Source: Bacteroidales bacterium
Lineage (GTDB): Bacteria; Bacteroidota; Bacteroidia; Bacteroidales; F082
Assembly (NCBI GenBank): GCA_015491905.1
Contig: WGGC01000029.1
Location: 1 to 64,000, forward strand
DNA length: 64,000 nucleotides
Direction: 5' to 3'
How positions within the stretch are numbered: the first letter of the stretch is position 1; each line of letters starts with the position of its first letter. The notes under the pieces are model-generated. The model had not been told where the DNA came from, did not search any database, and saw only the letters and a list, made by a program, of their open reading frames with translations. The position numbers and the translations under genes were made by a program. Of the stretch, positions 20,897 to 46,284 are shown piece by piece.

Positions 20897-23203
20897 ATGA
20901 TGTTATCTACAAAACGTTTTATTTTGATGAGCATAGTTATTTTTATAACTGGTTTATTTGCTGAGCCGATAACGGCTCAGCAAACGCTCAAAGATGTTAA
21001 ACAACAGCGAGGGTTGTCAAATGCCGATATATTGGCTGCCGTAAAAACCTTTATGCCCCGAGGAGGTAGAGATGAGTATTTTGGCTTTGCCGGCACCGGT
21101 AATTCAGGTACTATGATCGTTTATGGAATTCCCTCTATGCGTATTTATAAATACGTTGGTGTGTTTTCACCGGAACCATGGCAGGGATACGGCTATGATG
21201 ATGAAAGCTCATTGATGCTTAAAAAGGGATCTTTAGATGATAAAATTGATTGGTATGGAGATATGCGATATCCTGCATTATCAGAAACAAATGGCAATTA
21301 TGATGGAAAACATTTGTTTTATTCTGACGGGGCTAATTCTCGTATTGCTTTAATTGATTTAAAGGATTTTGAGACTAAACAGGTTTTAAGTAATCCTCTT
21401 TTTATTTCTTCTTATCCTGAAGCTGCAGTAACCCCAAATACTGAATATGTAATTCAGACAAGCCAATTTCCATCACATTGGGCAGGAGATATTTCTGATC
21501 TAGATAGGGATATAAAATTGGCAAATCCAAAGAAATTTCATGATGCAGGTGGAGAATATTACGAATATGATAAAAAGTTTCGTTCGGGAATTACATTTTG
21601 GAAATTCCAAGAGGGTAGTGGTAAATCAGAATCAGGTCATGAAGGCCGTATTCTTAAAGAATTGTCATTTACTTTGGAATTGCCACCATTTACAATGGGA
21701 TATTTTGATGTGGGTAAATTTGACAGTAAGGGATATGTTTTTGGTTCAGCCAGAAAAAATGGTAAGAATTATGTATATGTTGTAAAATATGATAACCTGC
21801 ACCTATTGAAAAACCGTCCTGTAAATGATGCTACATTAGTCTCATTTCATGATGCACTTGATTCAAATGACATTGTTATGATTCAAGTTCCTTCAGCTGC
21901 TAAAATGGTTAAGGTTTCACCAAAAGGAGAATATGTTATTGCTGTTAGTGATACTATTCGTGTTTTTGATGTAAACAAGATTATTCAAACAATGAAAAAT
22001 AAAGCGTATTCTGTTAATCGTGCAGCTGGAATTCCCGTTGTATTAGCTTCGAAAGTTGAGCATGGAGAACTGGCTTTGGGAAATGGTGTTATGGATGTTG
22101 CTTTTGATTTCCGCCCTGATATTGCTTATGCTTCAGTATTTAATGATAAAAAAATCGTACGCTGGAATTATAAAACAATGAAAAAAGAATCAGAAATAAC
22201 GGTTGATTTCAAACCGGGTCAATTGATGGTTCCACAAGGGTTATCAGCTTCTCCTCATTCCAATTATCTAACAGCTGTCGATAAAGAAGGTATTTATAAG
22301 AATTTTCTGAAAACAGGTCCTGTTCGGCCAAGTTTTCAACATTTAATTGATATTTCTGGTAATAAAATGCACGATATTTATACAATGAGTTTACCTCAAT
22401 GTAACCTTTATGGTTCAGTTGCAGTTTTAAGAACTACCATTAAGCCTATTATAAGATATCCAGTAGGAACTAATTCCAGAACAGGAGAAATTTCAGCGTA
22501 TAAAACACTTGCCGGAAAAGAAAAAATAGAGAAAAAAGGAAACAGAGTTCATGTTTTTGGAACCTTAATTCGTTCACATATTACACCTGAAATTATTGAA
22601 GTGAATCAGGGTGATGTTGTGACCATTCATTTAACTAACCTCGAACTTGCCGAAGATGAAACACATGGGTTTACTGTTGATACTTATGGAAAGCATGCCA
22701 GTTTTGAACCCGGTAAAACTGCATCAGTTACTTTTGTAGCAGATAAATCTGGTGCATTTCCTTATTATTGTACCGAGTTTTGTTCAGCATTGCATCTTGA
22801 AATGGAGGGTATTTTATTAGTAAAGCCTAAAGGATTTAAAGGAAAAGCCGGAAAAGGCAATATACAACTTACTAAAAAAGAAATGTTGAAATATAAATCT
22901 GATTATGAAGCTAAACTTAAAGTTATTAGCCAAACACAAGATGTTATTAATGGCGTTGTAAAATGGTTGAAAGAAAACCATTACGAAAATCATCCTTATG
23001 TAAAAGCACTGGTTCAGGATGCCGTTGCTCAGTTAACTGAAGGTGCTAAAGCCAAAAAGAAATATGAAAGTTTTGCAGCCAAAGGAAGTTGGAAAGACGC
23101 TTTTTTATGGGCTGAACAATATTTTCAATATCAGGTAAAAGCTGCTGATGCAGGGCTTAGAGCTCAGAAGTTACTGAAGGAAAAACTTCAAAGTACACAT
23201 TAG
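20897..23203 (+). CDS. NosZ-like protein with intact CuA and no CuZ ligands
   Basis: This 768-residue NosZ paralogue has a Sec signal (cleavage near AQQ, residue ~29), a propeller domain and a C-terminal cupredoxin domain. The CuA site is complete: H590, then CTEFCSALHLEM with C625, C629, H633 and M636 in the family spacing (H590 to C625 is 35 residues). Glu627 sits where many NosZ have Trp, as in cytochrome oxidase subunit II. All seven CuZ histidines are replaced: R124 and Y125 (usual DTHHP is DMRYP), Y173, K336, D400, Q442 and Y505. It cannot build CuZ, so alone it should not reduce N2O. A ~130-residue helical tail follows CuA. It lies 37 nt before the complementary gene. An electron-transfer subunit is the likely role. 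Confidence 0.9.
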   Translation: MMLSTKRFILMSIVIFITGLFAEPITAQQTLKDVKQQRGLSNADILAAVKTFMPRGGRDEYFGFAGTGNSGTMIVYGIPSMRIYKYVGVFSPEPWQGYGYDDESSLMLKKGSLDDKIDWYGDMRYPALSETNGNYDGKHLFYSDGANSRIALIDLKDFETKQVLSNPLFISSYPEAAVTPNTEYVIQTSQFPSHWAGDISDLDRDIKLANPKKFHDAGGEYYEYDKKFRSGITFWKFQEGSGKSESGHEGRILKELSFTLELPPFTMGYFDVGKFDSKGYVFGSARKNGKNYVYVVKYDNLHLLKNRPVNDATLVSFHDALDSNDIVMIQVPSAAKMVKVSPKGEYVIAVSDTIRVFDVNKIIQTMKNKAYSVNRAAGIPVVLASKVEHGELALGNGVMDVAFDFRPDIAYASVFNDKKIVRWNYKTMKKESEITVDFKPGQLMVPQGLSASPHSNYLTAVDKEGIYKNFLKTGPVRPSFQHLIDISGNKMHDIYTMSLPQCNLYGSVAVLRTTIKPIIRYPVGTNSRTGEISAYKTLAGKEKIEKKGNRVHVFGTLIRSHITPEIIEVNQGDVVTIHLTNLELAEDETHGFTVDTYGKHASFEPGKTASVTFVADKSGAFPYYCTEFCSALHLEMEGILLVKPKGFKGKAGKGNIQLTKKEMLKYKSDYEAKLKVISQTQDVINGVVKWLKENHYENHPYVKALVQDAVAQLTEGAKAKKKYESFAAKGSWKDAFLWAEQYFQYQVKAADAGLRAQKLLKEKLQSTH

Positions 23204-23240
23204 GAGATTATAATATTTAATTTTAAAATAATTAAGAAAT

Positions 23241-25622
23241 ATGAATATGAAAAAATTTAGTACGTATATAAGTCTTTTTATGGCAACATTAATTATTTCT
23301 TCCCTATTGGTTTTTACCGGTTGCGGTGGAAAGAAGAAGTCTGCCGTTGAAGAAATTGGCGCTCCCAGAGGCGACGAGTCTTTTGGGCAAGTAATTAAAA
23401 GACGAGGATTAACTTCAGATGATATTTTAGCTGCTGCCAAAACATATACTCCTGATCATGTGCAGGATGAATATGTAACTGTTAACTCTGGGGGTCAGGA
23501 AGGTAATTTACCAACCTATTTAGTTCCTTCTATGAGATTAGTAAAATATACTCCTACAAACACCAGAAACCCTTATGATGGATATGGCTATTCAACAGAG
23601 ACCTATGGGTTGATGCGTCAAGGATTTATTGATGGACATCAAATTCTTTGGGGCGATACCCATCATCCTGGGATTTCTGAAACCAATGGAGATTATAATG
23701 GAAAATGGTTAGTAATTAATGATAAAGCTAACCCTAGATTATTTGTTGTCGATTTAAAGGATTTCGAGCCTAAGCAGGTAATAAAAAATCCACTTTTTAG
23801 ATCCGACCATGGTGGATGTTTCTTTACACCAAATTCTGAATATATAATGGAAGCTTCTCAGTATCCTGCTCCGTTTGACCATAAGTACTATCCTTTGAAT
23901 GATGTTAACTTTAGAAAATACTGGCGCGGAGGGTTAACTTATTGGAAATTTGATAACGAAAATGGTAGAATTGATAAAAAGAATTCTTTTACTTTTGAAT
24001 TTCCACCATATACTCAGGATCTTTCTGATGCAGGGAAAAATGCTAGTTATGGCTGGGGATTTACCAATTCATTTTGTACTGAAATGTATATTGGTGGAGA
24101 TATGCAGGGACGTCCTCCTTTTGAAGCTGGCTGTTCCTCAAGAGATGTCGATTATCTACATGTTACCAATTGGAAAAAGGCTGCTGAATTAGTGAAGCAG
24201 GGAAAATATAAACTTATAAATGGAATGAAAGTTATTCCTATTAAAGAAGCTATTAAATATGGTATTCTCTTTTTAATTCCTGAACCTAAGTCTCCCCATG
24301 GTGTTGATGTTGATCCAACCGGTGATTATATTCTTGTTGCCGGGAAATTAGATTCGCATGTATGGGTGTATTCATTTAAAAAAATAATGAATGCTATTAA
24401 AAATAAAGATTTTGAAGGATATGATTCATATGGAATTCCAATTATTGCTTTAAAAACTGCTTTGCATGGTAGCGTTGAAGTTGGATTAGGTCCATTGCAT
24501 AATCAATTCGACCCTGTTAAAGGTGTTGTGTATACCTCTGTTTATGTTGATTCATGGACAACAAAATGGGATTACATTAATTTAAAGGTACTTGATCATG
24601 TGTCTTCTAATTACAATATAGGTCACCTTGTTTCTACTCATGGCGATACTAAACATCCTCAAGGTAAGTATTTAATTGAGTTAGATAAATTGTCAATAGA
24701 TAGATTTAATCCGGTAGGACCTTTACATCCCCAGAATCATCAACTTATCGATATCTCTGGTGATAAAATGAAGATTATTTATGACATGCCTCTGCCTATG
24801 GGTGAACCACATTATACAGTTATGTTTAATAAAGATTTATTACACACTATTGATAAATATCCTGTAGGTACTGATATTGTTTCCCTAAAAAAAGCTTCGT
24901 ATGCTGTAACTCCCGGAAATGAACATACAAATCGCTCTAAAAGAACTGTCGAAGTTTTTGGTACCATTCAGAATGGAAAGGTTGTCCCTGAAAATATTAG
25001 AGTTAAACAAGGTCAAAAAGTTATAATTCACCTTACAAATGTTGGCCAAACAGAATTAGATCATTATGTTTATGAAATTGCTTCTTACGATAAACAATAT
25101 AGATGGCGCCCCGGAGAAACCGCAACTTTACAATTTGTTGCTACTAAAGCCGGTATGTATCCTTTAATGTTAGATGACATATCTTCACCTGAAGGAAGAA
25201 AATTACAAGGCTATTTACAAGTCAGTTATCGTCCGGCAGCTGAAAAAGCCAGACTACTTGCTTTTTCTAAACGAATCCAAAAGGATAATGAAATGCAGAA
25301 GTTTCAACCTTCAGCAATTGAGTTGAAAAATTTATTGCCCGGTGAACTTGAATTCCTTAATTACGGATGTACTGCATGCCATAAATTTGGTAAAGATTTT
25401 AATGGTCCTGATTTGTTAATGGTAGATAAAAGACGTTCTGATAAATGGTTGAAGTCATGGATTATGAATCCTGAAAAACATATGAAAGAAGCAGATATCC
25501 AGGCTATGCGTAATAAATATAAACTTGCTATGCCAAATCAAAATGTTTCTTCTTCTGATGCTGATAAAATTATTAAGTATTTGAAAGCTAAATCAACCGA
25601 ATTTTTAAAACAACAACAATAA
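23241..25622 (+). CDS. nosZ: NosZ with intact CuZ, degenerate CuA and fused cytochrome c (lipoprotein)
   Basis: This 793-residue Sec-type nitrous oxide reductase is predicted to reduce N2O to N2 in the periplasm. The signal peptide ends in a lipobox (FTGCGG, Cys ~28), so it should be membrane-anchored. All seven CuZ histidines are present: H141 and H142 (DTHHP), H190 (SDHGG), H353 (SPHG), H420 (GLGPLH), H462 (IGH) and H524 (GEPH). The cupredoxin domain keeps only H608. The CuA loop is replaced: L644 and S648 at the two Cys positions, G652 for His, L655 for Met. A C-terminal cytochrome c domain has CTACH (710-714) and a likely axial M764. Clade II NosZ with a cytochrome tail normally keeps CuA, so this loss is unusual. 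Its partner is probably the upstream paralogue. Confidence 0.92.
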   Translation: MNMKKFSTYISLFMATLIISSLLVFTGCGGKKKSAVEEIGAPRGDESFGQVIKRRGLTSDDILAAAKTYTPDHVQDEYVTVNSGGQEGNLPTYLVPSMRLVKYTPTNTRNPYDGYGYSTETYGLMRQGFIDGHQILWGDTHHPGISETNGDYNGKWLVINDKANPRLFVVDLKDFEPKQVIKNPLFRSDHGGCFFTPNSEYIMEASQYPAPFDHKYYPLNDVNFRKYWRGGLTYWKFDNENGRIDKKNSFTFEFPPYTQDLSDAGKNASYGWGFTNSFCTEMYIGGDMQGRPPFEAGCSSRDVDYLHVTNWKKAAELVKQGKYKLINGMKVIPIKEAIKYGILFLIPEPKSPHGVDVDPTGDYILVAGKLDSHVWVYSFKKIMNAIKNKDFEGYDSYGIPIIALKTALHGSVEVGLGPLHNQFDPVKGVVYTSVYVDSWTTKWDYINLKVLDHVSSNYNIGHLVSTHGDTKHPQGKYLIELDKLSIDRFNPVGPLHPQNHQLIDISGDKMKIIYDMPLPMGEPHYTVMFNKDLLHTIDKYPVGTDIVSLKKASYAVTPGNEHTNRSKRTVEVFGTIQNGKVVPENIRVKQGQKVIIHLTNVGQTELDHYVYEIASYDKQYRWRPGETATLQFVATKAGMYPLMLDDISSPEGRKLQGYLQVSYRPAAEKARLLAFSKRIQKDNEMQKFQPSAIELKNLLPGELEFLNYGCTACHKFGKDFNGPDLLMVDKRRSDKWLKSWIMNPEKHMKEADIQAMRNKYKLAMPNQNVSSSDADKIIKYLKAKSTEFLKQQQ

Positions 25623-25648: not shown

Positions 25649-25680
25649 AGGAGTTACAAATGTTTACTTTTGTAACTCCT
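25649..25680. promoter_or_regulatory. Perfect inverted repeat overlapping a -7 box
   Basis: AGGAGTTACAAA (25649-25660) and TTTGTAACTCCT (25669-25680) form a 12-bp perfect dyad with an 8-nt loop. The promoter-like TACTTTTG (25665-25672) overlaps the loop and right arm. An ATG at 25660 in the left arm would extend the next frame, but the -7 box makes that start unlikely. It may be an attenuating hairpin after nosZ, or an operator for the cytochrome promoter. Confidence 0.6.
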
Positions 25681-25710
25681 TTATCATTAAATAATAAAAA
25701 TAAGAAAGAG

Positions 25711-26121
25711 ATGAAAAAAATTTTCATATTTATTACAGCTGTTTTCTTTGGACTTGCTGTATTTACAGGTTGTGGAAACCATTCTGATAAAAGTAAAAAA
25801 TCAGACCATGCCAAGATTAAGACTACTACTTCGGTTGCATATACCGCTAATATTGAGCATGGAAAGGCTATTTATAATAAGGTTTGTATAGCTTGTCATA
25901 TGACTGGTGTTGCTGGTGCCCCTGCCTTGAAAAACAAAGCACGCTGGGAAGAAATTGCAAAAAAAGGTATGAAACAGTTACATAAAGATGCTATTGATGG
26001 GTTTACAGGTAAACATGGTGTTATGCCACCAAAAGGTACATGCACAACCTGCTCCGATCAGGATATATATGATGCTGTTGCATATATGTTAAATAAAGCA
26101 GGAGTTACTGCAAAAAAATAG
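25711..26121 (+). CDS. Small lipoprotein cytochrome c of the nos cluster (NosC/cytochrome c5-like)
   Basis: From the ATG at 25711 this is a 136-residue monoheme cytochrome with a lipoprotein signal (FTGCGN, Cys21). The heme motif is CIACH (59-63), and M105 in HGVMPPKG is the probable axial ligand. A Cys pair in CTTCSD gives a c5-like look. It should be held at the outer face of the inner membrane and pass electrons to the NosZ pair. It follows the second nosZ by 88 nt with its own -7 box and ends at a strong terminator. Confidence 0.85.
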   Translation: MKKIFIFITAVFFGLAVFTGCGNHSDKSKKSDHAKIKTTTSVAYTANIEHGKAIYNKVCIACHMTGVAGAPALKNKARWEEIAKKGMKQLHKDAIDGFTGKHGVMPPKGTCTTCSDQDIYDAVAYMLNKAGVTAKK

Positions 26122-26290: not shown

Positions 26291-27082
26291 ATGAAAAAAA
26301 ATAATACATATCAAATTTTTGCTGGTATTGCTGCTATTTTAATAATAGTTGTTTACTTTATTCCTATGTGGCATGTTGCACTGCAAAGTATTCAATATCC
26401 TAAATCTATGTATCCCCGAGGAATACGTATTGATTTTGCTTTCAATGGTGTTTATAATGGCTGTAAAGGAGAAAAAGAGCGAAAAGAACTATCCCAAAGT
26501 CAGCAAGGTGCTGATTGTTTGACCGAAATGAATGCTATTAATCATTTTATAGGCATGTATCATATTGTTCCTGGTGTTAACGAAGATAAATCTCGCCAAT
26601 TTCCTATTTATTATGTTTTTGATACAAAAAAAACTAGTAGTGGTAAGGAAATTATAAATCCTAAAACTAATGAGCCCATAAGAGTAAATGTTACTCCGAA
26701 AGCACTATTATTTCTTGATGGAATAATGCATGGTTCTCCTTATATTTTTGGATTTTTTATTTTATTAACATTGATTTTTATATTTGTCAGGAAAAGAGCT
26801 GTTATATGGGCTGCAATTATACCGGCACTGGTTCCATTTTATTTTCTTGGGGTTTTTATTTATTATCTCTATTGGTATGGACATCATTTGAGTATGCATG
26901 GTGGTGGGGCTTTTAGGGGTATAAAACCATTTATGCCAACAGTTTTTGGTGAAGGTAAAGTTGCACAATTTACAACAGAATCATACCCCTATTTTGGATT
27001 TTTTGTAGCACTACTCGTTACTGCCCTCTTGATTATTGCTATTATTTTAAAAGTTAAATCATTAAAAACTCAAAATAAATAA
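26291..27082 (+). CDS. nosB: NosB-like membrane protein
   Basis: This 263-residue integral membrane protein has about four membrane helices (about 7-26, 150-168, 171-195 and 237-258) and a large loop after the first helix. A His-rich stretch, YGHHLSMHGGG, follows helix 3. A membrane protein between nosZ and nosD is a hallmark of clade II nos clusters and is called NosB; its function is not well known. The His/Met-rich segment could touch copper, but that is speculation. Confidence 0.75.
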   Translation: MKKNNTYQIFAGIAAILIIVVYFIPMWHVALQSIQYPKSMYPRGIRIDFAFNGVYNGCKGEKERKELSQSQQGADCLTEMNAINHFIGMYHIVPGVNEDKSRQFPIYYVFDTKKTSSGKEIINPKTNEPIRVNVTPKALLFLDGIMHGSPYIFGFFILLTLIFIFVRKRAVIWAAIIPALVPFYFLGVFIYYLYWYGHHLSMHGGGAFRGIKPFMPTVFGEGKVAQFTTESYPYFGFFVALLVTALLIIAIILKVKSLKTQNK

Positions 27083-27092
27083 TAAACATTAA

Positions 27093-28487
27093 GTGATAAT
27101 TTTTCGATTTTCGCCTTGGTTTAAAATTTTATTCATTTGGAATAATGTTATTAAAGTAGTGGAAAGAAGTTTACAAATAAGTTTTATAAAGATTATTTTC
27201 GGTCTTTTGGTTTTTCTTCCTCTAGCAGGTAATACTCAAACTGTTACCCCCGGACTGTTATCTCCAACAGATACTAACTTTCTTTCTAAAGATACCATTT
27301 TGCTTCAGCCTTTGATTAATAATGCAGCACCAGGAGATACTATATTTCTTAAGGGTGCCATTTACAAAGGGCCTGCTGTTATTTCTACTAATAATGTTGT
27401 TATTGATGGTGGTAACCATGCTATTGTGGATGCTGGAAAAAAAGGTTCTGTTTTTTTAATTCAAGCTGATAGTGTTACCATTCAAAATATGATTATTCAA
27501 AACTCTGGTGGCTCCTTTGATAAATTAAATTCCGGGGTACGTCTGAAGGGGAATTATAATACTATTAAAAACTGTAGAATTAGAGAAACCTTGTTTGGAA
27601 TAGATATATGGCAAAGTAATTTTAATAAAATTATTCACAATGATATTAGTTCTAAAACAAGCAGGTCAACCGCAATTAAAGGCGATGCAATTAGACTATG
27701 GTATTCTAAACATAATCAAATTATAGGAAATTATTGGCATGGTGTACGCGACATGGTTGTTTGGTATTCGGCTGTAAACCTATTTCAGGAAAATAAAGGC
27801 GAAGGAAACAGATATGGTATTCATTTCATGTATTCTCATAATAATAGAATACAAAATAATGTATTACTAAATAACTCTGTCGGAATATTTTTAATGTATA
27901 GTGAGCGTACTATTGTTTCTGGTAATTTAATTAAAGGAAATCATATTGGAAGTGGGATGTGTATTGGAATGAAAGAAACTTCCTCCAATCAAATATTAAA
28001 TAATCGGTTAATATATTCTACTGAAGGTATCCATATTGATGTGTCACCTTACGTACCATCACAGAAGAATACAATAGAAGGTAATGAAATAGCTTTCTGT
28101 GTAACGGGGGTTTATTTTCATACTAATCAGAAGGGAAACCTATTTAAGCATAATTACTTCCATAATAACTTAACACAAGTTTATCCTGAAGTAACAACAG
28201 CTCGTTATAATACATGGCAATATAACTATTGGGATGATTATGAGGGGTTTGATAAAAATCATGACAATGTTGGTGATGTCCCTTATGTGCTTTTATCATA
28301 TGTCGAATATCTATGGGATTTTAATCCTAATGTAAAGTTTTTCTTTGGTGCCCCTGTTATTGCAGTGCTGAATTTTATTGAGAGACTTGCTCCTTTTTCT
28401 AAACCTAAATTTGTTTTAGAAGATAAAACACCCCTTTTCCATTGGGAAGAAAGGGAATATTTTAAACAAAATTCTACTGAAAAATAA
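27093..28487 (+). CDS. nosD: NosD, periplasmic copper-site maturation protein
   Basis: NosD works with the NosFY ABC transporter to assemble the CuZ cluster of NosZ. The protein is a right-handed beta helix with many NNxI/GNxI turns (IKNCRIRETLFGIDIW, NRYGIHFMYSHNNRI) typical of CASH/NosD repeats. A Sec signal lies at about 30-50 (IIFGLLVFLPLAGNTQT). The open frame starts at a GTG (27093), which puts ~25 residues before the signal. A second GTG at 27159 would give a normal signal length, so the start is uncertain. It is 10 nt after nosB. Confidence 0.9.
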   Translation: MIIFRFSPWFKILFIWNNVIKVVERSLQISFIKIIFGLLVFLPLAGNTQTVTPGLLSPTDTNFLSKDTILLQPLINNAAPGDTIFLKGAIYKGPAVISTNNVVIDGGNHAIVDAGKKGSVFLIQADSVTIQNMIIQNSGGSFDKLNSGVRLKGNYNTIKNCRIRETLFGIDIWQSNFNKIIHNDISSKTSRSTAIKGDAIRLWYSKHNQIIGNYWHGVRDMVVWYSAVNLFQENKGEGNRYGIHFMYSHNNRIQNNVLLNNSVGIFLMYSERTIVSGNLIKGNHIGSGMCIGMKETSSNQILNNRLIYSTEGIHIDVSPYVPSQKNTIEGNEIAFCVTGVYFHTNQKGNLFKHNYFHNNLTQVYPEVTTARYNTWQYNYWDDYEGFDKNHDNVGDVPYVLLSYVEYLWDFNPNVKFFFGAPVIAVLNFIERLAPFSKPKFVLEDKTPLFHWEEREYFKQNSTEK

Positions 28488-28530
28488 TTTATCTAAAAAA
28501 ATTAATCTATAATCTGGTATTTTTACAATA

Positions 28531-28938
28531 ATGTATAAAAGGTTTATCGCAATATTATTTTTGTTTTTTTATTTGGCATTTCTGTTTGTGCCTGCACTTC
28601 CTTTTATTCATTATTACTTATTCTCTTCCCATTCAACCTTTCAACAAAATGGTAATATGAAGAGGTTTAATAACAATGAAGATACACATACCGGAGATAC
28701 TGCTTATTTACTTGCCTTAATTAAGAGTGCAAAAAAGCATCAAGCAGGAAAAAAGAATGAGAATCCGCCACCATCTTCTAATAGCGAGATAAATAATCTT
28801 ATTTATTTAAATAATGTAGATGCTGTTTTTTTTGTTGAAACTGATGCTTCACAAATTCATTTTATTCAGATCAATAAGACCTTACTGTGGCGATATCTAA
28901 CCGTAACCAGCCCCCCACCTAATAAAAAAGTGATTTAG
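28531..28938 (+). CDS. Hypothetical single-helix protein between nosD and the copper receptor gene
   Basis: I do not recognise a family. The 135-residue protein has an N-terminal membrane helix or uncleaved signal (about 5-31). A hydrophilic middle rich in Lys and Asn holds NENPPPSSNS, and the C-terminal half has a small strand/helix pattern ending TSPPPNKKVI. It lacks heme and obvious metal motifs, though His is frequent near the helix. Small proteins of this layout often precede TonB-dependent receptor genes in Bacteroidota. A link to copper uptake is inference from position. Confidence 0.6.
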   Translation: MYKRFIAILFLFFYLAFLFVPALPFIHYYLFSSHSTFQQNGNMKRFNNNEDTHTGDTAYLLALIKSAKKHQAGKKNENPPPSSNSEINNLIYLNNVDAVFFVETDASQIHFIQINKTLLWRYLTVTSPPPNKKVI

Positions 28939-29370
28939 ACAAAATCAAAATATTTATTTTCTTTTATTTGTTAAGACAAAATCATATATGTTAATACGTT
29001 ATATGGTTTTTATATGACCGTGAATAAAATTATAGTTATATAATATTTTCGGTAAAAATTTCATAAACTTTTAAAAGAAAAACGAATATAAATTTAAAGT
29101 AACATGAATATTTTTAAAATTAAATAGTTGTTATGCAGATTATATAACAAAATGCTCGTTAAGTCATTTTGCTTGTAACAATGGTAAATGCTGAAATTAC
29201 AGCATAACGAGTTCATTGAGTGGAATGAAGATATGCTGTATTTATTTGAATATTACATGTTACCAGTTAAAAAAATCATTAATAAAAAATAAAGATTTAA
29301 ATATTGAAAAGGTACTTTTTAAAAGTGTAGTTATAAACTTTCAATGTTTTAATTTGACAAAAGGATAAAA
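28939..29370 (+). promoter_or_regulatory. Intergenic region with a structured segment before the copper receptor gene
   Basis: This is a 432-bp gap. From 29155 to 29229 there are nested dyads: CTCGTTA (29155-29161) with TAACGAG (29205-29211); TGCTG (29189-29193) with CAGCA (29200-29204), directly inside the first; and TTCATT (29212-29217) with AATGAA (29224-29229). GGTAA (29183-29187) and TTACC (29260-29264) may also pair. This looks like a folded leader. It lacks the conserved cobalamin riboswitch boxes. The rest is AT-rich. Confidence 0.4.
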
Positions 29371-31449
29371 ATGAAAAATAAATATATTATATTGTTATTT
29401 AGCCTGATTCTAATTTCTTTGGAATCATGGGCTCAGATGGCATTAACATCATCGGATACCTTAAATCTGGATGAAATATTAATTACAGGAAGCAAAAAAA
29501 AATCTATTAATCGTAAAGATATAAATGGAAAAATTCTTGAACTTCAAAATCCTCATGATGGGGGAGAGTTATTTATAAATCAGCCTGGTTTTGGTATTGT
29601 TAAAAAAGGAAACTATGCTATGGAACCTGTTTTAAGGGGCTTTAAATATCGACAGTTAAACATTCAGTTTGATGGTGGTGTACATAGTACTAATGCATGT
29701 CCCAATAGGATGGATCCTGCAATTTCACAGATTTCTGTTGAGGACATCCAGCGTATAGAAGTTGTTTATGGCCCTTATAGCGTTAGGTTTGGCCCTGTTT
29801 TTGGAGGAATAATTAATGTTGTAAGCAAAAGGCCTTTACGGGGATCAAGAGCTTTTGCAAGTTCTGTTACGGCCGGATATCAATCTAATGGCAATAACTT
29901 TTATTCTGATTTTTTCACACAAGTGGTGAAGAAAAGATTTGATTTCTCTGCTAATATTGGGTATAAAAATTATGGAAATTATAAAAGCGGTTCGGGAGAA
30001 ACTATTATGTCTTCCTTTAAACGAACCGGCTATACAACACGCTTAGGCTATAATATTTCTGATAAACAACGATTACAATTTACACTCAGGCAAAGTTTTG
30101 CAAGAGATGTTTTATATGCCGGTTTGCCTATGGATGCTGATGAAGATAACAGTAGTATTTTATCTTTAGATTATGGTGTGTCTGATATATCTAAATCTGT
30201 TTTTTCTTTAAAATTTAAACTGTATGGTTCTTTTATTACACATTTAATGTCAAATAAAAGAAGGCCTAATTATAAATATACTCATGCAAACACGCCACTT
30301 ACTGCACAAGATATTGGTGGGCGTACAGAACTGGGAATAAGTACCGGCGTAAGAAATGTTTTATATACAGGAATAGATTTTAGGCATATCGGCAAAAACG
30401 GGTCGCGAACACGTGAAGTATTTATTAATGCATGTACAGGAATGGTGTTACCACAGCCAAAAACTTTTACTGATAAGGTTTGGCAAAATTCATCAACTAA
30501 TGATTTTGGAATTTTTCTTGAAAATAAATATTCTATTTCTAAATCATTAACATGGCTTACAGGTTTGCGTTTGGATGAAGTAACCTATTCCATTCTTGAT
30601 CCTTCAAATGATTTTAAAGTTTTATATAATGGTGATATAAAACCAAAGGGTCGACTTTTGCCGGAAATTACAACAAGTTTAACCTGGAATCTAAATTCTA
30701 GCACAACTCTTCAAATTTCATCAGCACGTGCTAGCAGAACTCCCGACCTGTCCGAACTATTTATAAACCATTTAAGCATTGGAGCTGATGCTTACGAATA
30801 TATTGGGAACCCAGGTCTTAAAGATGAGATTAATTACCAAACGGATTTAAGGTTAGAAAAAGATTTTAAAAATGTAAGTTTATATTCAGATGTTTTTGTT
30901 TCATTTTTAAAAAATTATATTACCGCAAGAGTCGATTCATCTGTTATTCGGAAGTTTATGCCATGCAAGCAACCAAAGTATACTAAAAAATTTACAAATA
31001 TTGGTAAAGCTTTTAAAGCCGGATTTGAAGTTGGTTTGAATTGGAAAATGAATCGCTATATTTTGTATGATTTGTCAGCTTCTTATACTTATGCTCAAAA
31101 TATTAGCTGGAATGAACCTCTTCCTGAAATAGAGCCATTCACAATTGTTTCGGGAATAGCGTACAATACTACCAAATTTAATTCAAGATTGGATGTGCGC
31201 ATAGCTGCTAACCAAAATAGAGTGTCTGCAAGTTTTAATGAGCCTAAAACTCCAGGATATGCGGTTTTTGACTGGTATTTGAATGCCAATATTACTAAAT
31301 CATTGGAATTAAGAATTTCGGTTACAAATATTTTAAACCGAAATTATGTTCAACATTTGAGCCGGGCTTATCGTAATATGAAAAGTAAAAGCCTTTATTT
31401 TGAACCGGGAAGAAGTTTTAATTTTAGTTTGAAATGGAATATTTTATAA
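29371..31449 (+). CDS. nosA: TonB-dependent copper receptor, NosA/OprC type
   Basis: This 692-residue outer-membrane receptor has a Sec signal ending AQM (about 22), a plug domain (residues ~35-160; GGIINVVSK) and a beta barrel ending in Phe/Leu-rich strands (FNFSLKWNIL). Two motifs match the copper site of OprC: CPNRM (C110, M114) and HLM (H291, M293). OprC binds copper through Cys and Met of CxxxM and His and Met of HxM, and the spacing here is almost the same as in OprC. NosA is known to supply copper for N2O reductase in Pseudomonas. Its place inside the nos cluster agrees. A structured leader precedes it. Confidence 0.88.
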   Translation: MKNKYIILLFSLILISLESWAQMALTSSDTLNLDEILITGSKKKSINRKDINGKILELQNPHDGGELFINQPGFGIVKKGNYAMEPVLRGFKYRQLNIQFDGGVHSTNACPNRMDPAISQISVEDIQRIEVVYGPYSVRFGPVFGGIINVVSKRPLRGSRAFASSVTAGYQSNGNNFYSDFFTQVVKKRFDFSANIGYKNYGNYKSGSGETIMSSFKRTGYTTRLGYNISDKQRLQFTLRQSFARDVLYAGLPMDADEDNSSILSLDYGVSDISKSVFSLKFKLYGSFITHLMSNKRRPNYKYTHANTPLTAQDIGGRTELGISTGVRNVLYTGIDFRHIGKNGSRTREVFINACTGMVLPQPKTFTDKVWQNSSTNDFGIFLENKYSISKSLTWLTGLRLDEVTYSILDPSNDFKVLYNGDIKPKGRLLPEITTSLTWNLNSSTTLQISSARASRTPDLSELFINHLSIGADAYEYIGNPGLKDEINYQTDLRLEKDFKNVSLYSDVFVSFLKNYITARVDSSVIRKFMPCKQPKYTKKFTNIGKAFKAGFEVGLNWKMNRYILYDLSASYTYAQNISWNEPLPEIEPFTIVSGIAYNTTKFNSRLDVRIAANQNRVSASFNEPKTPGYAVFDWYLNANITKSLELRISVTNILNRNYVQHLSRAYRNMKSKSLYFEPGRSFNFSLKWNIL

Positions 31450-31542
31450 TTAGAATAAATAAGTAATTAATAACTTATTTATTGATAATATAAAGAATTG
31501 AAGAATAAAAGTTTGTAAATTTACCATTCTAAATTTCAAAAT

Positions 31543-32352
31543 ATGGGGAAACATTCTATTAACCGTAGGCAATTCTTAAAGTCATCATTAATTGCGGTAG
31601 GATCTCTTACTGCCGTTGGTGTAGGAGTTGGTTATCTTCAGAAAGTAACTACTGAAGAGCGAATAAATCAGAAATTTTTACGACCACCAGGTGCTATTAA
31701 AGAAAAAGATTTTATTTATGCTTGTATAAAATGTGGATTATGTATACAAATTTGTCCGGTACATGCTATTAAATTTGCAGGTATTAAAGAAGGTCTTGCT
31801 TACGGCACTCCTTATATTGATGTACGTGAACAGGCCTGCGATTTTTCATGCGATTCTATACAATGTGTTGAAACCTGTCCAACCTCAGCACTTTACTTTG
31901 TGCCTTTTAAAATGGCAGGAGAAAAAGCAATTGAAAAGTATAATTTAACCCATAAAGCTGATGTAAATTATAATCCTTTTCCTGTACAAATAAAAGCTAT
32001 GAAAAGCATTGTGCGAATGGGCAAAGCAAAAATTAATACCGGAACATGTCTGGCATATAAGGGTAAAGGATTTAAAGGCACACCAAGAGGCGATAAATTT
32101 AAAGGTGTAAACCGTTCTCCTTATTCTCAGGATCAGCGTGCAACACCTGTTAGAGATAAATTTTACGATGAAAAAATTTGTCATATTTGTGTTAAAGAAT
32201 GTCCAATAGGTGAAACGGCTATAATACAGAAAAAGAACGACAAGGGGCTGCTTGTCCCTGAGGTTTTGGATGGCTGCACAGGTTGTGGTGTTTGTGTAAT
32301 GGTATGCCCAACGGAAGAGCCAAGTATTGTTATAGAACCAATTAAATCATGA
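31543..32352 (+). CDS. nosG: NosG-like periplasmic ferredoxin
   Basis: NosG is a NapG-like iron-sulfur protein thought to pass electrons from the quinol pool towards NosZ. The 269-residue protein begins with a twin-arginine signal (NRRQFLKS) and has four cysteine clusters for [4Fe-4S] centres: CIKCGLCIQICP, CDFSCDSIQCVETCP, CHICVKECP and CTGCGVCVMVCP. It overlaps nosH by 4 nt. The folded clusters explain the Tat signal, whereas both NosZ-like proteins have Sec signals. Confidence 0.9.
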   Translation: MGKHSINRRQFLKSSLIAVGSLTAVGVGVGYLQKVTTEERINQKFLRPPGAIKEKDFIYACIKCGLCIQICPVHAIKFAGIKEGLAYGTPYIDVREQACDFSCDSIQCVETCPTSALYFVPFKMAGEKAIEKYNLTHKADVNYNPFPVQIKAMKSIVRMGKAKINTGTCLAYKGKGFKGTPRGDKFKGVNRSPYSQDQRATPVRDKFYDEKICHICVKECPIGETAIIQKKNDKGLLVPEVLDGCTGCGVCVMVCPTEEPSIVIEPIKS

Positions 32353-33293
32353 ATGTTATGAATTGGAGAATGAATAAAAATAAACCTTTACCTGCAAAAA
32401 GAAAAGAGGATATTCCATATATTAAGGAAGGTATAACTTTTAAAGAATGGAAAGCTAAAAACGGTAGTGGCCATAAATGGAGATCCATCCGCTGGACTGT
32501 TTTAATTAGCATTAACGTTTTGTTTATTATATCTTTTTCATTGGATTTAGCAATTTTAGAAGGTTCTTTAAGTGGCTCCCGTTTAATTGGTTTTTATTTA
32601 ATGGATCCGTTTAATTCGTTACAAGAATTAGTTATTTCTGCCTATAGTGGGCATTTTGGCTTGTTGACAATGAACTTTGCCATAGGTGCTCTCACTATTT
32701 TATTTTTTTATTTTTTAATGGGCGGACGAACCTATTGTTCCTGGATATGCCCTTATCATTTTCTTGCTGAATGGGGTGATAAACTACATAATTATCTGGT
32801 AAAAAAGAAAAAAATTAAAGAACATAAATTTAATATTTATTTACGTTTTGTTTTTTGGACCGGATTTTTACTTTTAGCCTTATTAACTCAAAACCTGGTA
32901 TTTGAAGATGTTAACCCGGTAGGTATTTTGTCGAGAGCCATGATATATGGACCAGGATTAATTCTTTTATGGGTTCTTGCTTTGCTTATATTTGAGATTG
33001 TTTATAGTAAACGGTTTTGGTGTAGTTATATTTGTCCTATAGGTGCAACGTGGAGTATGGTAGGAAAACTTTCTCCATTTGGCGTTAAGTTTGAACTTGA
33101 TAAGTGTGCACATTGCCGCGATTGTCAGGATGTCTGTGAAGTTCCACATGTACTGTGGTTTGTTGAAAGAGGAAAGGCTACTAAAGTTAGGCATGATGCC
33201 GGGTCGGATTGTACACGTTGTGGCTTATGTATTGATGCTTGTCCTGGAAATGCTTTAAATTATACAATAAAAGGTTGGGATAAAATATTATGA
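32349..33293 (+). CDS. nosH: NosH-like membrane ferredoxin/quinol dehydrogenase
   Basis: NosH is a NapH-like integral membrane protein that forms a quinol-oxidising unit with NosG. The 314-residue protein has about four to five membrane helices, two CxxxCP-type motifs (CSWICP, CSYICP) and two ferredoxin clusters at the C-terminus (CAHCRDCQDVC and CTRCGLCIDACP). It overlaps nosG and nosF by 4 nt each, so the three are translationally coupled. Confidence 0.9.
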   Translation: MNVMNWRMNKNKPLPAKRKEDIPYIKEGITFKEWKAKNGSGHKWRSIRWTVLISINVLFIISFSLDLAILEGSLSGSRLIGFYLMDPFNSLQELVISAYSGHFGLLTMNFAIGALTILFFYFLMGGRTYCSWICPYHFLAEWGDKLHNYLVKKKKIKEHKFNIYLRFVFWTGFLLLALLTQNLVFEDVNPVGILSRAMIYGPGLILLWVLALLIFEIVYSKRFWCSYICPIGATWSMVGKLSPFGVKFELDKCAHCRDCQDVCEVPHVLWFVERGKATKVRHDAGSDCTRCGLCIDACPGNALNYTIKGWDKIL

Positions 33294-33964
33294 TTGATGT
33301 AGATAAACAACTAGTTCGAGCTGAACACTTGACAAAATCTTTTAATGGTGTTGAAGTACTTAAAAAAATTACATTTAATTTTAATGAAGGAGATCGTATA
33401 GCCCTAATTGGACAAAATGGTGCCGGAAAAACGACATTAATTAGGTGTATATTAGGTCAATATGTATTTAATGGAAGTCTGGAAGTACTGGAAAAAAATC
33501 CAAGGACAGATCGTGTTAATATTTTAAAGGAAGTTGGTTTTGTTCCACAAATACCACCTCCGCTAAAATTAACTGTTCGTGAATTATTGAAATTTTATAG
33601 TACATTAAGTAATACCTCAGCTGATGAATATATTGATATTGCTGAGAGTCTGGGACTGAAGATTAAAGAATCGTTTAAAAAACCTTTTTTGGCGCTTTCT
33701 GGTGGAATGAAACAGAAACTGTTAGTATCATTTGCACTGGGTAAAAAACCAACAATTTTAATTATGGATGAGCCGTCTGCAAATTTAGACCCGGCTGCCA
33801 GAGAGATTTTCTTTGATTATTTAGGTAAGTATAATAAAGAGGCTTTGCTTTTGCTTAGTAGTCATAGAATGGATGAAATTAAAAATCTTGTTAACCGTGT
33901 AATTGAAATGGATTTTGGTAATATTGTTGTTGATAAAAAATTCTCTGATATACCATTTGTCTGA
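33290..33964 (+). CDS. nosF: NosF, ABC transporter ATPase
   Basis: NosF is the ATPase of the NosDFY complex that matures CuZ. The 224-residue protein has Walker A GQNGAGKTT (about 41-49), signature LSGGMKQK, Walker B ILIMDEP and the switch His in SSHRMDE. The length is normal. Its start overlaps the nosH stop. In this cluster nosL lies between nosF and its partner nosY. Confidence 0.93.
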   Translation: MIDVDKQLVRAEHLTKSFNGVEVLKKITFNFNEGDRIALIGQNGAGKTTLIRCILGQYVFNGSLEVLEKNPRTDRVNILKEVGFVPQIPPPLKLTVRELLKFYSTLSNTSADEYIDIAESLGLKIKESFKKPFLALSGGMKQKLLVSFALGKKPTILIMDEPSANLDPAAREIFFDYLGKYNKEALLLLSSHRMDEIKNLVNRVIEMDFGNIVVDKKFSDIPFV

Positions 33965-33977
33965 TAAATTATAAATT

Positions 33978-34092
33978 GTAAACATATGAAACGTCCATGT
34001 TTGAATAATTATTAAATCGCACAGGAAAATGATTATTCAATCATGGTAAGTTCCATGTGACCAATGAAATATAAAATTATAAACACATGAAA
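33978..34092 (+). repeat. Dispersed structured element, copy 3 (over nosL start)
   Basis: This shorter copy lacks the inner CCCTGTGAAA hairpin (only GCACAGG remains), but it keeps the outer dyad (CCATGTTTGAATAATT against GATTATTCAATCATGG). CATGTG (34054-34059) pairs perfectly with CACATG (34084-34089), which includes the nosL AUG. Compared with copy 2 (CATCTG/CAGATG) this is a compensatory change. The left ATG opens a nine-codon frame. Confidence 0.75.
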
Positions 34093-34590
34093 AAATTATT
34101 CTTTTTTTTATCTATTGTCATTTTTTTGAGTGCTTGTTCTCATAATTCTGATTTTCATCCCCGAAAGGTTAATTATGATAGAGATGTTTGCGCTCAATGT
34201 TTAATGGGAATCGCTGATCAGCCTTATGCGGTTCAGGCCATTAACTCGAGTGGTCAGGTTTTGTGGTTTGACGATATAGGTTGTTTGGTTAACTATACAA
34301 AAACTCCGAGCTGGAAAAAGTTTATTAATAATAGGCCTTATAAAATATGGGTAGGAAACAGTAATGGCGCAAGCGGTGATAAATGGCTTGAATTACAAAA
34401 GGCTTATTTTACTTATGGAAAACATACTCCCATGGGATATGGCTATAGTGCGGTAAAGACTCCTTCTGATTCATCTTTTACTTTTATCCAAGTTGAAAAA
34501 CGAATTATTGAGGGAAAAACAATGAGGGAAGAATTCTTGAAAAAAAACCACATGATGGGTAAAGGAATGAAACATAATAAACAACATTAA
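34087..34590 (+). CDS. nosL: NosL, copper chaperone lipoprotein
   Basis: NosL delivers Cu(I) for N2O reductase assembly. The 167-residue lipoprotein has a lipobox (LSAC, Cys17) and the metal motif CAQCLMG (C35, C38, M40). FDDIGCLV, TYGKHTPMGYG and a Met/His-rich tail (HMMGKGMKHNKQH) also fit a copper protein. The tail may add binding sites. It starts inside the structured element copy 3, so its translation may be controlled separately from nosF and nosY. Confidence 0.9.
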   Translation: MKKLFFFLSIVIFLSACSHNSDFHPRKVNYDRDVCAQCLMGIADQPYAVQAINSSGQVLWFDDIGCLVNYTKTPSWKKFINNRPYKIWVGNSNGASGDKWLELQKAYFTYGKHTPMGYGYSAVKTPSDSSFTFIQVEKRIIEGKTMREEFLKKNHMMGKGMKHNKQH

Positions 34591-34716
34591 TTTTCAGAAA
34601 TTCCCCCTTTTTAAAAAATATTTGTATCTGTTTTGAGGTAAAATACCTTTACACTTGCAATCAACAAGTGAAATTAAATTATAAAAACTAGTTTTTTAAT
34701 AACATATATTAATCAA

Positions 34717-35559
34717 GTGATAAAATTAATAACTAAAGAATTTAGGTCTGTTCTAAAGTTGGATTTGAACCAAACACTTAGGACTAAAGGATTTTGGATA
34801 TATAGCATTCTTTTTGGCGGGTTTATAGCATTCTTATTCGTTTCCGGAATTACAGAAACCCAAATTATTGGATTTGTTGGATTAGGTCGACTAATGGTTA
34901 CTTTTATGCAGGTTTGTATGGTAATTATTCCTATTTATGTTCTGATTACAGTTGTTCGTTCAATTGTAGGAGATAAAGAAAATAATGTTATGGAATATAT
35001 GCTTTCATTACCAGTCTCTTTTAGTGATTTCTTTTGGGGTAAATTTGTTGCTAAATTTATTGTGATTTATATTCCTTTATTTGTTTCTTTACTTTTAGCA
35101 GTAATATGGGGTGCTATTTCTAACCTGGATATTCCATGGAATATGTTTTTCTTGTATAGTGCCTTACTTGCCGCTATGGTTTTCTGCTTTCTTGGAATTG
35201 GAATGTTAATTTCGGTTTATGCTCGTTCACAAGATTTTGCAGTAAGTTTTGCGTTTGTTATTTGGTTGATTCTTGTGGCTTTTATAGACTTACTGTTAAT
35301 GGGGATTTTATTGAAATTTAGGGTAGATCCTCAATGGGTTATTGGTATTGGTATGCTAAATCCATTGCAGGTTTTTAGAGTAGGGGTTTTGGTTTTGTTT
35401 GATCCGAAATTAACAGTTATGGGGCCTGCAGCATATTTTATTTTAGATACCGTTAGCAGAAGTGCCTTTATTGTTTTTTCAATATTATATCCAATATCTA
35501 TTGGCCTTTTATTTGCCTGGTGGGGAAACAGAAGGTTTAATAATAAGGATGTTATATAG
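34717..35559 (+). CDS. nosY: NosY, ABC transporter permease
   Basis: NosY is the membrane subunit that pairs with NosF and NosD. The 280-residue protein has about six membrane helices and the typical VGDKENNVMEYMLSLPVSFSDFFWGKF coupling region (about 88-114). The start is a GTG at 34717. Upstream, two small hairpins lie in the 126-nt gap: AGGTA/TACCT at about 34636-34648, and CACTTG/CAAGTG at 34652-34670. Confidence 0.88.
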   Translation: MIKLITKEFRSVLKLDLNQTLRTKGFWIYSILFGGFIAFLFVSGITETQIIGFVGLGRLMVTFMQVCMVIIPIYVLITVVRSIVGDKENNVMEYMLSLPVSFSDFFWGKFVAKFIVIYIPLFVSLLLAVIWGAISNLDIPWNMFFLYSALLAAMVFCFLGIGMLISVYARSQDFAVSFAFVIWLILVAFIDLLLMGILLKFRVDPQWVIGIGMLNPLQVFRVGVLVLFDPKLTVMGPAAYFILDTVSRSAFIVFSILYPISIGLLFAWWGNRRFNNKDVI

Positions 35560-43916: not shown

Positions 43917-46064
43917 TTGAATATGAAGTTAGAAAAATTTACGTATGATAACCAACTTTCCAAGTTGTTTATGTTTGCAACGGTTTTTTGGGGAACTATT
44001 GGGATGTTAGTGGGTTTAACTATTGCTTTTGAATTAATATTCCCCGGTCTGAATGGTGGAATTTCCTGGCTCACTTTTAGCCGGATTCGTCCAATTCACA
44101 CTAATGCTGTAATTTTTGCCTTTGTTGGAAACGGTATTTTTACGGCGGTATATTACTCTTCTCCCAGGCTACTGAAAACACCAATGTTTAGTAAGGTTTT
44201 AGGCAAAATTCATTTCTGGGGCTGGCAGCTTATAATTTTGGCAGGAGCTATTACACTACCGTTAGGATTGACCCAATCAAAGGAATATGCAGAACTTATT
44301 TGGCCTATTGATATTGCAGTAGTTGTTATCTGGGTAATTTTTGGCATTAATTTTTTCGGTACTCTGGCAAAAAGGAGAATGAAACATATATATGTTGCAT
44401 TATGGTTTTTTATTGCAACCTGGATTACTGTGGCAGTTTTATATATTGTTAATAATTTGCAATTGCCAACAAGTTTGTTGCATAGTTATCCTATTTATGC
44501 AGGCGTTCAGGATGCTTTGGTACAATGGTGGTACGGTCATAATGCAGTTGCATTTTTTCTTACTACTCCATATTTGGGGTTAATGTATTATTTCGTCCCG
44601 AAAGCTGCAAATCGTCCTATTTACTCATACCGGTTATCAATTATTCACTTTTGGTCTTTAATTTTTATCTATATATGGGCAGGGCCTCATCATTTATTAT
44701 ACTCAGCTTTACCTGACTGGGTTCAGGCATTAAGCGTTGCTTTTTCTATTATGTTATTGGCTCCTTCATGGGGAGGTATGTTAAATGGGTTATTAACATT
44801 AAGGGGTGCTTGGGACCGGGTGAGAAAAGACCCGGTTTTAAAAATGTTTGTTGTTGGTGTTACTGCATACGGAATGGCAACTTTTGAAGGGCCGATGCTA
44901 GCATTGAAGTCTGTTAATTCTATGAGCCATTTTACCGACTGGACTATTGGTCATGTTCATGTTGGTACACTAGGCTGGAATGGTATGATGACCTTTGGTA
45001 TGATTTATTGGTTGGTTCCCCGTTTGTTTCAAACAAAATTATTTTCAACAAAATTGGCTAACATCCATTTTTGGATTTCAACATTAGGTTTATTATTTTT
45101 TGTTATCCCTTTATATTTTGCCGGTTTTACACAAAGTTTAATGTGGAAACAGTTTACTGCCACCGGACAATTGGCCTATCCTAATTTTCTTGAGACAGTA
45201 ACTCAAATTATGCCAATGTATTATTTAAGAGCTTTTGGTGGTTCTTTATATTTTATTGGAATGATAATGTTTGTAGTAAATGTATGGAAAACGGCTGCTA
45301 TAGGTTCTTTTAAACGATATGAAAACGATGAGGCTCCGGCCCTTGAAAAAACCTTTAAAGATGATCCTGTTACCGGATTAAAATGGGGATGGCATCATAG
45401 ACTGGAAGGGAAAGTTGTTAAGTTTTCAGTTTTTGCTTTAATTGCCATATTGATTGGAAGTTTATTTGAGATGATTCCTATGTTTTTGATTAAATCAAAT
45501 GTTCCTACAATTGCTGCAGTAAAGCCTTATACTCCTCTTGAATTGCAAGGGCGTGATATTTATGTCAGCAATGGTTGCTATACTTGTCATTCCCAAATGA
45601 TTCGTCCTTTCCGTTCAGAAACAGAAAGGTATGGGGAGTATACTAAAGCCGGGGAGACAGTTTATGATTTTCCTTTTCAATATGGCTCAAAGCGAACCGG
45701 CCCCGATTTAGCAAGAGAGGGAGTTAAAACCTTACCCAACTATAAACCGGATGCCTGGCATTATAATCATATGATGGATCCTCAAAAAATTAATGCTCAG
45801 TCAATTATGCCTCCTTATCCGTGGATGGCTACAAAAAAAATAGACTTATCTTCTACTCCTTCAAAAATCAGGGCTATGATGACTTTAGGGGTTCCGTATC
45901 CTGAGGGATATGACAAAATTGCCAATAAAGATCTGAAGGTTCAGGCACATAAAATTGCTGAAAACCTGAGATCATCAGGAATTAAAGTTAATGATGATGC
46001 TGAGATTATTGCTTTGATAGCATATTTACAACGCTTAGGTACAGATATTTATAAACATAAATAA
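43917..46064 (+). CDS. ccoN: Fused cbb3 oxidase subunits CcoN-CcoO
   Basis: This 715-residue fusion covers catalytic subunit I (CcoN, about 1-480, ~12 helices) and the monoheme subunit II (CcoO). Heme and copper ligands are visible as HTNAV, WYGHNAV, GPHHLLYSALPDW and WTIGHVHVGTLGWN. The CcoO part has CYTCH (554-558) followed by SQMIRPFRSE, and YPWM carries the likely axial Met. The fusion is common in Bacteroidota, so it is not a sequencing error. It reduces O2 at low concentration and pumps protons. Confidence 0.95.
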   Translation: MNMKLEKFTYDNQLSKLFMFATVFWGTIGMLVGLTIAFELIFPGLNGGISWLTFSRIRPIHTNAVIFAFVGNGIFTAVYYSSPRLLKTPMFSKVLGKIHFWGWQLIILAGAITLPLGLTQSKEYAELIWPIDIAVVVIWVIFGINFFGTLAKRRMKHIYVALWFFIATWITVAVLYIVNNLQLPTSLLHSYPIYAGVQDALVQWWYGHNAVAFFLTTPYLGLMYYFVPKAANRPIYSYRLSIIHFWSLIFIYIWAGPHHLLYSALPDWVQALSVAFSIMLLAPSWGGMLNGLLTLRGAWDRVRKDPVLKMFVVGVTAYGMATFEGPMLALKSVNSMSHFTDWTIGHVHVGTLGWNGMMTFGMIYWLVPRLFQTKLFSTKLANIHFWISTLGLLFFVIPLYFAGFTQSLMWKQFTATGQLAYPNFLETVTQIMPMYYLRAFGGSLYFIGMIMFVVNVWKTAAIGSFKRYENDEAPALEKTFKDDPVTGLKWGWHHRLEGKVVKFSVFALIAILIGSLFEMIPMFLIKSNVPTIAAVKPYTPLELQGRDIYVSNGCYTCHSQMIRPFRSETERYGEYTKAGETVYDFPFQYGSKRTGPDLAREGVKTLPNYKPDAWHYNHMMDPQKINAQSIMPPYPWMATKKIDLSSTPSKIRAMMTLGVPYPEGYDKIANKDLKVQAHKIAENLRSSGIKVNDDAEIIALIAYLQRLGTDIYKHK

Positions 46065-46072
46065 TTCTGATT

Positions 46073-46273: not shown

Positions 46274-46284
46274 CACCTGTTATT

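Follow-up and report, generated by a model that had tools for sequence, protein, structure and literature searches.

The locus and its gene content

The window, that is, the whole stretch of 64,000 nucleotides analysed here (contig WGGC01000029.1 of a Bacteroidales bacterium, family F082), carries two adjacent nosZ-like genes on its forward strand, to which the features described below between positions 20897 and 35559 also belong. The first gene (20897..23203) encodes protein A, a NosZ of 768 aa with CuA and without CuZ, and the second (23241..25622) encodes protein B, a NosZ of 793 aa with CuZ, without CuA and with a cytochrome c domain; both frames are unbroken and a gap of 37 bases separates them.

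Protein A is composed of a propeller domain (21050..22540, approximately residues 52-548), which matches NosZ chains in fold, a cupredoxin domain (22541..22825, approximately residues 549-643) holding the CuA set H590, C625, C629, H633 and M636 together with the gate residue F628, and a C-terminal tail of three long helices (22826..23200). This tail is common to the long canonical clade II NosZ, and the matches to those proteins reach residue 762. Protein B starts with a lipobox-like N-terminus at Cys28 (23322..23324), recognised with a home-made pattern and likely to be a lipid anchor. Its propeller domain (23445..24941, approximately residues 69-567) bears the seven CuZ histidines, K483, E522 and the Ca2+ ligand D304, and contains a Ca2+-loop stretch (24036..24170, residues 266-310) of 45 residues, compared with 24 in A; in its cupredoxin domain (24942..25226, approximately residues 568-662) every CuA ligand is replaced, and the protein ends with a cytochrome c domain (25338..25619; PF00034) whose CxxCH motif lies at residues 710-714. 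The cytochrome domain and the lipobox are features beyond those described in the first-pass annotation.

B scores 682 bits against the clade II NosZ model TIGR04246, above the curated cut-off of 625, and A scores 451 bits, below it; with the clade III lactonase-type model NF052460, a distant homologue, both stay far under the cut-off of 700 (A 95 bits, B 108 bits). A and B share 31% identity, and their identity to Bacteroidota NosZ of the same family is about 29% (A) and 34% (B). AlphaFold2 models were obtained with mean pLDDT of 81.2 (A) and 78.5 (B) and pTM of 0.74 and 0.72, respectively, the CuA loop of A being poorly predicted (pLDDT < 50). Against the solved NosZ entries listed, VIA-align gave Z of 42.8-47.0 and rmsd of 3.7-4.2 for A, and Z of 45.5-47.6 and rmsd of 2.5-3.2 for B, with both domains covered in each case. 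As far as predicted models can tell, the fold of A and of B is that of NosZ, a seven-bladed propeller followed by a cupredoxin domain.

Downstream of the pair lies a separate cytochrome c gene (25660..26121), similar to a domain that is fused to the end of B in some relatives. The rest of the nos cluster (26291..35559) encodes a membrane ORF, NosD, a small ORF, a TonB receptor, a 4Fe-4S protein, a NapH-like protein, an ABC ATPase (in the place of NosF), a NosL-like lipoprotein and a permease (in the place of NosY); NosF and NosY are named by place and context, and NosL is below its Pfam cut-off. A single NosD is present in the genome. The membrane ORF (26291-27082) has no Pfam or NCBIfam match and stays beside NosZ in loci with the pair as well as in the listed loci that have a single long nosZ. 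For the TonB-dependent receptor (29371-31449), which is conserved at the same place in many pair loci, the best NCBIfam model is the copper receptor TIGR01778, at 185 of 472 bits and thus below the cut-off. Further along the window, at 43917-46887, there are frames that by eye resemble subunits of a cytochrome oxidase bearing c-type heme motifs, and after them comes one more cytochrome c.

Division of the copper ligands between A and B

In an alignment with canonical NosZ, protein A has H590, C625, E627, C629, H633 and M636 at the CuA columns, and R124, Y125, Y173, K336, D400, Q442 and Y505, hence no histidine, at the seven CuZ columns. Protein B presents the opposite arrangement: all seven CuZ columns are histidines (141, 142, 190, 353, 420, 462, 524), and the CuA columns read Y, L, D, S, G, L, with Y609, L644, S648, G652 and L655 in place of the ligands H, C, C, H and M. 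The six canonical NosZ rows from the same family of organisms all have both sites. The columns were checked, through the chain rows, against the residue numbers given for Marinobacter nauticus in PMC11573801, and the copper ligands fell on the expected letters.

The first-pass annotation had proposed that A keeps the full CuA set and has lost all seven CuZ histidines, and that B keeps all of the latter; the alignment returns the same residues in both cases. Its account of the losses in B was right for both Cys, His and Met of the CuA loop and incomplete in one respect, as the second histidine (Y609) was left out of the list.

The division holds well beyond the window. A set of 195 full-length NosZ-like rows, from which 28 fragments had been excluded, separates by ligands into 77 A, 69 B and 49 canonical rows with no other or mixed pattern; sorting by identity to the A or B of the window returned the same pairs. 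After removal of identical rows (60 A, 56 B and 49 canonical rows remaining), CuA is complete in all A and all canonical rows, and CuZ in all B and all canonical rows. Five of the CuZ columns lack histidine in 60/60 A rows; one of the remaining columns is His in 10 A rows, another in at least 2 A rows from the family of the window, and a fragment from G043 has His at the first CuZ column. Three residues of A are nearly fixed at the former CuZ positions, namely 124 (R in 58/60), 400 (D in 60/60) and 505 (Y in 60/60), as if the emptied cluster cavity were packed in a fixed manner or had another binding partner.

Occurrence and linkage of the pair

Within the family of the window (173 genomes, its own included) 37 genomes match A. 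The pair is present, with both proteins, in 27 of these; another 7 carry a canonical NosZ, whole or as a fragment, and in the last 3 the match is confined to the cupredoxin. A and B occur together in 27/27 of the family genomes that contain either, and full-length A matches are 60-71% identical; one genome (G149) carries two A-B pairs on two contigs (L049, L050). The same split therefore cannot be ascribed to chance or to an assembly fault, since it is found in 27 of 173 genomes, among them a single-contig assembly (G143), and with this the possibility that the ligand losses would vanish in a corrected assembly is ruled out.

At the level of the order (393 genomes) the pair is present in 9 genomes besides that of the window, in six other families. 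When the genome collection was scanned with 15 aligned A proteins as query and the best 80 of 550 relatives were taken, 47 A-type and 33 canonical loci were obtained; B stands next to A in 46 of the 47, and the remaining locus ends at a contig end. These A-type loci, which overlap with the family and order genomes counted separately, all come from MAGs assigned to Bacteroidales, Bacteroidetes, Flavobacteriaceae, Flavobacteriales, Lutibacter, Saprospiraceae, Lentimicrobiaceae, Melioribacteraceae and Chlorobiota. The search for tandem nosZ pairs scored for both sites, which had been suggested together with the original proposal, thus finds that the split recurs.

Altogether 140 loci were examined, with some contigs present twice from two collections, and 139 contain a NosZ-like frame: 77 have A followed by B on one strand, 2 have A in two frames followed by B (one contig seen twice), 48 have one canonical frame, 1 has two canonical frames, and 11 have A or B alone. 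These last cases give no clear instance of a lone gene: all 11 lie 100 bases or less from a contig end, and for 10 of them the genome carries the partner on a different contig. A and B are adjacent on one strand wherever the contig permits.

The pair is rare in the wider samples, for which only two candidates were scored per genome, so that misses are possible. A search of 395 genomes of the class with B gave 129 matches (its own included) at E <= 1e-20, none of the others coming near B's own (best 2.6e-112, 39%), and no second pair was seen among them; with A as the query, 39 of 395 phylum genomes gave a match at E <= 1e-60, and the match in the window is the sole A among them. Five genomes of a single genus contain apparent closer relatives, with 50-52% identity over part of A; these were discarded as candidates, since three of the five were fetched and all three have both sites.

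A third, canonical nosZ elsewhere in the genome, doing all the work, would have refuted the original proposal. Searches of the genome with PF18764, TIGR04246 and NF052460, in an assembly that is 96% complete, found only A and B scoring as NosZ, the further NF052460 matches being weak (25 bits at most); at this completeness the evidence for absence is strong, not absolute.

Conservation of the domains and selection

The two domains have been retained in a complementary way, cupredoxin conservation being concentrated in A and propeller conservation in B. Across 50 loci in which both proteins are full, the mean pairwise identities of propeller and cupredoxin are 0.656 and 0.906 for A and 0.749 and 0.670 for B; the corresponding values are 0.780 and 0.809 in 34 long canonical rows and 0.705 and 0.789 in 15 short ones. 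Identity to long canonical NosZ follows the same line (propeller/cupredoxin, A 0.394/0.710, B 0.579/0.334). Among positions invariant in the 49 canonical rows, A keeps 29/31 in the cupredoxin and 29/88 in the propeller, and B keeps 11/31 and 76/88, respectively; rows cut by contig ends were set aside in these counts, and scoring them as losses lowers the propeller value of A to 19/88. As a control we took positions invariant in short canonical NosZ, of which long canonical rows keep 99/176 in the propeller and 34/52 in the cupredoxin, A keeps 38/176 and 34/52, and B keeps 91/176 and 13/52.

Median dN/dS is low in both proteins: 0.105 for A as a whole (propeller 0.105, cupredoxin 0.035) and 0.113 for B (propeller 0.092, cupredoxin 0.128), as estimated by plain Nei-Gojobori on 98-104 pairs, many with dS > 1. 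The metal-free propeller of A is therefore under selection, as a scaffold for a dimer would be. The distances of A and B are correlated in a mirror-tree comparison (0.89, 50 loci); this value is uncorrected for shared species history and carries little weight.

These data bear on whether the tandem copies might be remnants in partial decay, in an organism that no longer reduces N2O. One metal site has indeed been lost per copy, and in one assembly (G161) the A frame is split into two. We nevertheless find this explanation scarcely credible, given that frames are intact over many families, dN/dS is low in A and in B, each of the 60 A and 56 B rows has its retained site, and the cluster is conserved.

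Elements of the contact between CuA and CuZ

According to PMC11573801, the CuA domain of one NosZ subunit rests on the CuZ face of the other; the named elements of this contact used here are taken from section 12 of that paper, which includes a Ca2+ loop that clamps the cupredoxin of the partner. These elements are divided in the same manner as the metal sites, with the CuA-side gate in A and the CuZ-side acid and Ca2+ clamp in B. The gate F617 is Phe in 60/60 A and 49/49 canonical rows and in 1/56 B; E488, on the CuZ side, is Glu in 56/56 B and 49/49 canonical rows and Asn in 60/60 A; the Ca2+ ligand D274 is Asp in 56/56 B and 49/49 canonical rows, with a different residue in 58 or more of the 60 A; and the Ca2+-loop stretch measures 45 residues in 56/56 B, 24 in 60/60 A and 38-45 in canonical rows. 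K450, also on the CuZ side, goes against a simple division, because it is Lys in all three groups, including 60/60 A. Two further residues named in the paper, E465 and R184, show no conservation in clade II and are uninformative on the split.

It follows from the division of the gate, E488, D274 and the Ca2+ loop that the contact between CuA of A and CuZ of B keeps its working parts, and that hardly any of these survive in the reciprocal contact. If the proteins formed two homodimers, each retained half would be without a partner; taken together, A and B hold both ligand sets and the contact elements, at the level of sequence and without a model of the contact itself.

The tail of B raises an alternative. 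Its CxxCH motif occurs at one place in 67/68 B rows, the exception being a cut-off row. A second cytochrome c domain, which resembles the separate cytochrome at 25660, is present in 13 of the 68 rows, of which two come from one contig counted twice; among 22 pair loci listed, 16 have the separate cytochrome gene, 3 have two hemes in B instead and 3 have neither. The lipobox-like pattern, as defined here, is found at the N-terminus of 52/56 B, 2/60 A and 3/34 long canonical rows. With such a heme in place, B could form an active homodimer in which the fused heme c replaces CuA as the donor of CuZ, leaving A, outside that dimer, as a separate CuA electron shuttle or copper-handling protein, and the fact that B alone passes TIGR04246 is in keeping with this possibility. 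We hold it to be unlikely. A shuttle would have no need of the whole propeller that A maintains under selection (median dN/dS 0.105); the Ca2+ clamp and E488 persist in B, and their partners, F617 and the CuA loop, are left only in A; and in the sets examined every B is accompanied by an A.

It could also be supposed that A and B do form a heterodimer, with another job or substrate, acting for example as a copper redox sensor or reducing some other small molecule. There are no activity data, and the identities of A and B to each other and to Bacteroidota NosZ of the same family are as low as reported above. Nevertheless, this seems very improbable to us, since the seven CuZ histidines, K450, E488, and the CuA set with its gate are all kept and the cluster holds NosD and other nos-type genes.

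Relatives and origin of the pair

In trees of 57 and 58 rows, A forms one clade and B forms one clade, with SH-aLRT of 100 each. Both cluster with the long canonical NosZ found in Pseudomonadota and Myxococcota, and the short Bacteroidota NosZ lie elsewhere in the trees (clade names follow PMC13122619). The best trees do not join A and B as sisters, although a clade uniting them is not rejected (p-AU 0.396); some of the branches are long.

The long Sec-dependent clade II NosZ of Pseudomonadota and Myxococcota, for example that of Azonexus hydrophilus (L194), resemble A in their two-domain fold and helical tail; those of the 33 canonical loci of the scan are 41-45% identical to A and 49-56% to B. 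The operon order is similar. They differ in that a single gene holds CuA and CuZ, in 33/33 of these loci, and from B in lacking a cytochrome domain, with one exception. This exception, a Thiotrichaceae MAG (L193:145-6316), has two adjacent long canonical NosZ, 94% identical over their shared part and each with both copper sites, the second being fused to a tail with four CxxCH motifs. We considered it as a half-way state and set it aside, as two canonical and nearly identical copies point to a separate recent duplication; it is an independent case of duplication and cytochrome fusion.

The short clade II NosZ of Bacteroidota (e.g. the 664 aa protein of G168), which are present in the family of the window, have the NosZ fold and both sites, and differ from the pair in forming a separate clade, in holding both sites in one gene (6/6 rows) and in having no tail. 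Outside canonical NosZ, PMC10936187 reports in DPANN archaea short CuA-only nosZ-like proteins, accompanied in two MAGs by an upstream protein with five conserved His, and complementation that was not significant. Like A, these proteins have CuA without CuZ; unlike A and B they are short, without the NosZ propeller set and without the full seven His.

Of four single long nosZ loci listed, three have the order of the window (nosZ, membrane ORF, nosD, 4Fe-4S, NapH-like) and one has two genes exchanged. A single long nosZ thus stands at the same place of a similar operon, and the pair therefore looks like a duplication at that place, a history that is inferred.

A probable heterodimeric N2O reductase

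The first-pass annotation had inferred an obligate A-B heterodimer with one electron-entry site and one catalytic site. The comparative evidence supports this reading well: co-occurrence in 27/27 family genomes, adjacency, the fact that no third NosZ was found in the 96% complete assembly, the divided contact residues and the domain-complementary retention all favour it, in the absence of a model of the complex and of biochemistry. We judge it likely that A and B form an obligate heterodimer that reduces N2O at a single active site per dimer. The division of sites, their conservation, the linkage, the folds and the nearest relatives are observed; dimerisation, the electron path, N2O reduction and the history of duplication are inferred. 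The two sites are placed as had been suggested, CuA in A and CuZ in B, with the rider that the heme c of B may be the first acceptor.

The homodimeric NosZ of Marinobacter nauticus (9f8x/1qni) offers the model for the A-B dimer, being, according to PMC11573801, head-to-tail with the CuA of one subunit serving the CuZ of the other; it differs in that its subunits are identical and hence provide two sites per dimer. In the reading favoured here, a long clade II NosZ gene would have been duplicated, after which copy A would have kept CuA and the helical tail and lost CuZ, and copy B, which now has a cytochrome c domain and is probably anchored by a lipid, would have kept CuZ and lost CuA and the tail. 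In a head-to-tail arrangement the CuA domain of A would pack on the CuZ face of B, clamped by the Ca2+ loop of B, to make one working site, and the reciprocal contact would be structural only. Electrons would pass from a cytochrome c (the heme of B itself and/or the neighbouring cytochrome) to CuA of A and from there to CuZ of B, where N2O would be reduced; the dimer is probably fed by heme c.

A fuller version of this scheme goes further: the N2O reductase would be anchored in the membrane and obligately asymmetric, and electrons would make two crossings of the dimer, from heme c of B to CuA of A and back to CuZ of B. Through duplication, a symmetric homodimer with two sites would have become a heterodimer with one, in which one subunit is dedicated to electron input and the other to catalysis. 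We lean only slightly towards it. Several observations weigh against the heterodimer: the heme of B could in principle serve CuZ without A; K450 is kept in A as well, and some A rows (ten at one CuZ column, two of the family at another) have histidine; A and B are not joined in the best trees; and the CuA loop of A is predicted with pLDDT below 50.

The originators of the proposal knew of no description of such a split, and we found none in open-access PMC papers, the nearest being the DPANN study (PMC10936187). NosZ is described, in the abstract of PMC13122619, as the only known enzyme reducing N2O to N2. If the heterodimer is real, the two copper sites of NosZ can sit on different subunits and one half-site per dimer suffices; the CuA side and the CuZ side would be changeable singly, which is impossible in a homodimer, and the pair would offer a clear example of duplicated genes undergoing complementary loss. 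There is also a consequence for gene surveys: B passes the standard NosZ model TIGR04246 without CuA, and A fails it even though the heterodimer needs A, so that counts based on a single model would misread the genomes with the pair. N2O is a greenhouse gas, and the pair that may form an enzyme destroying it is seen in a group of uncultured bacteria.
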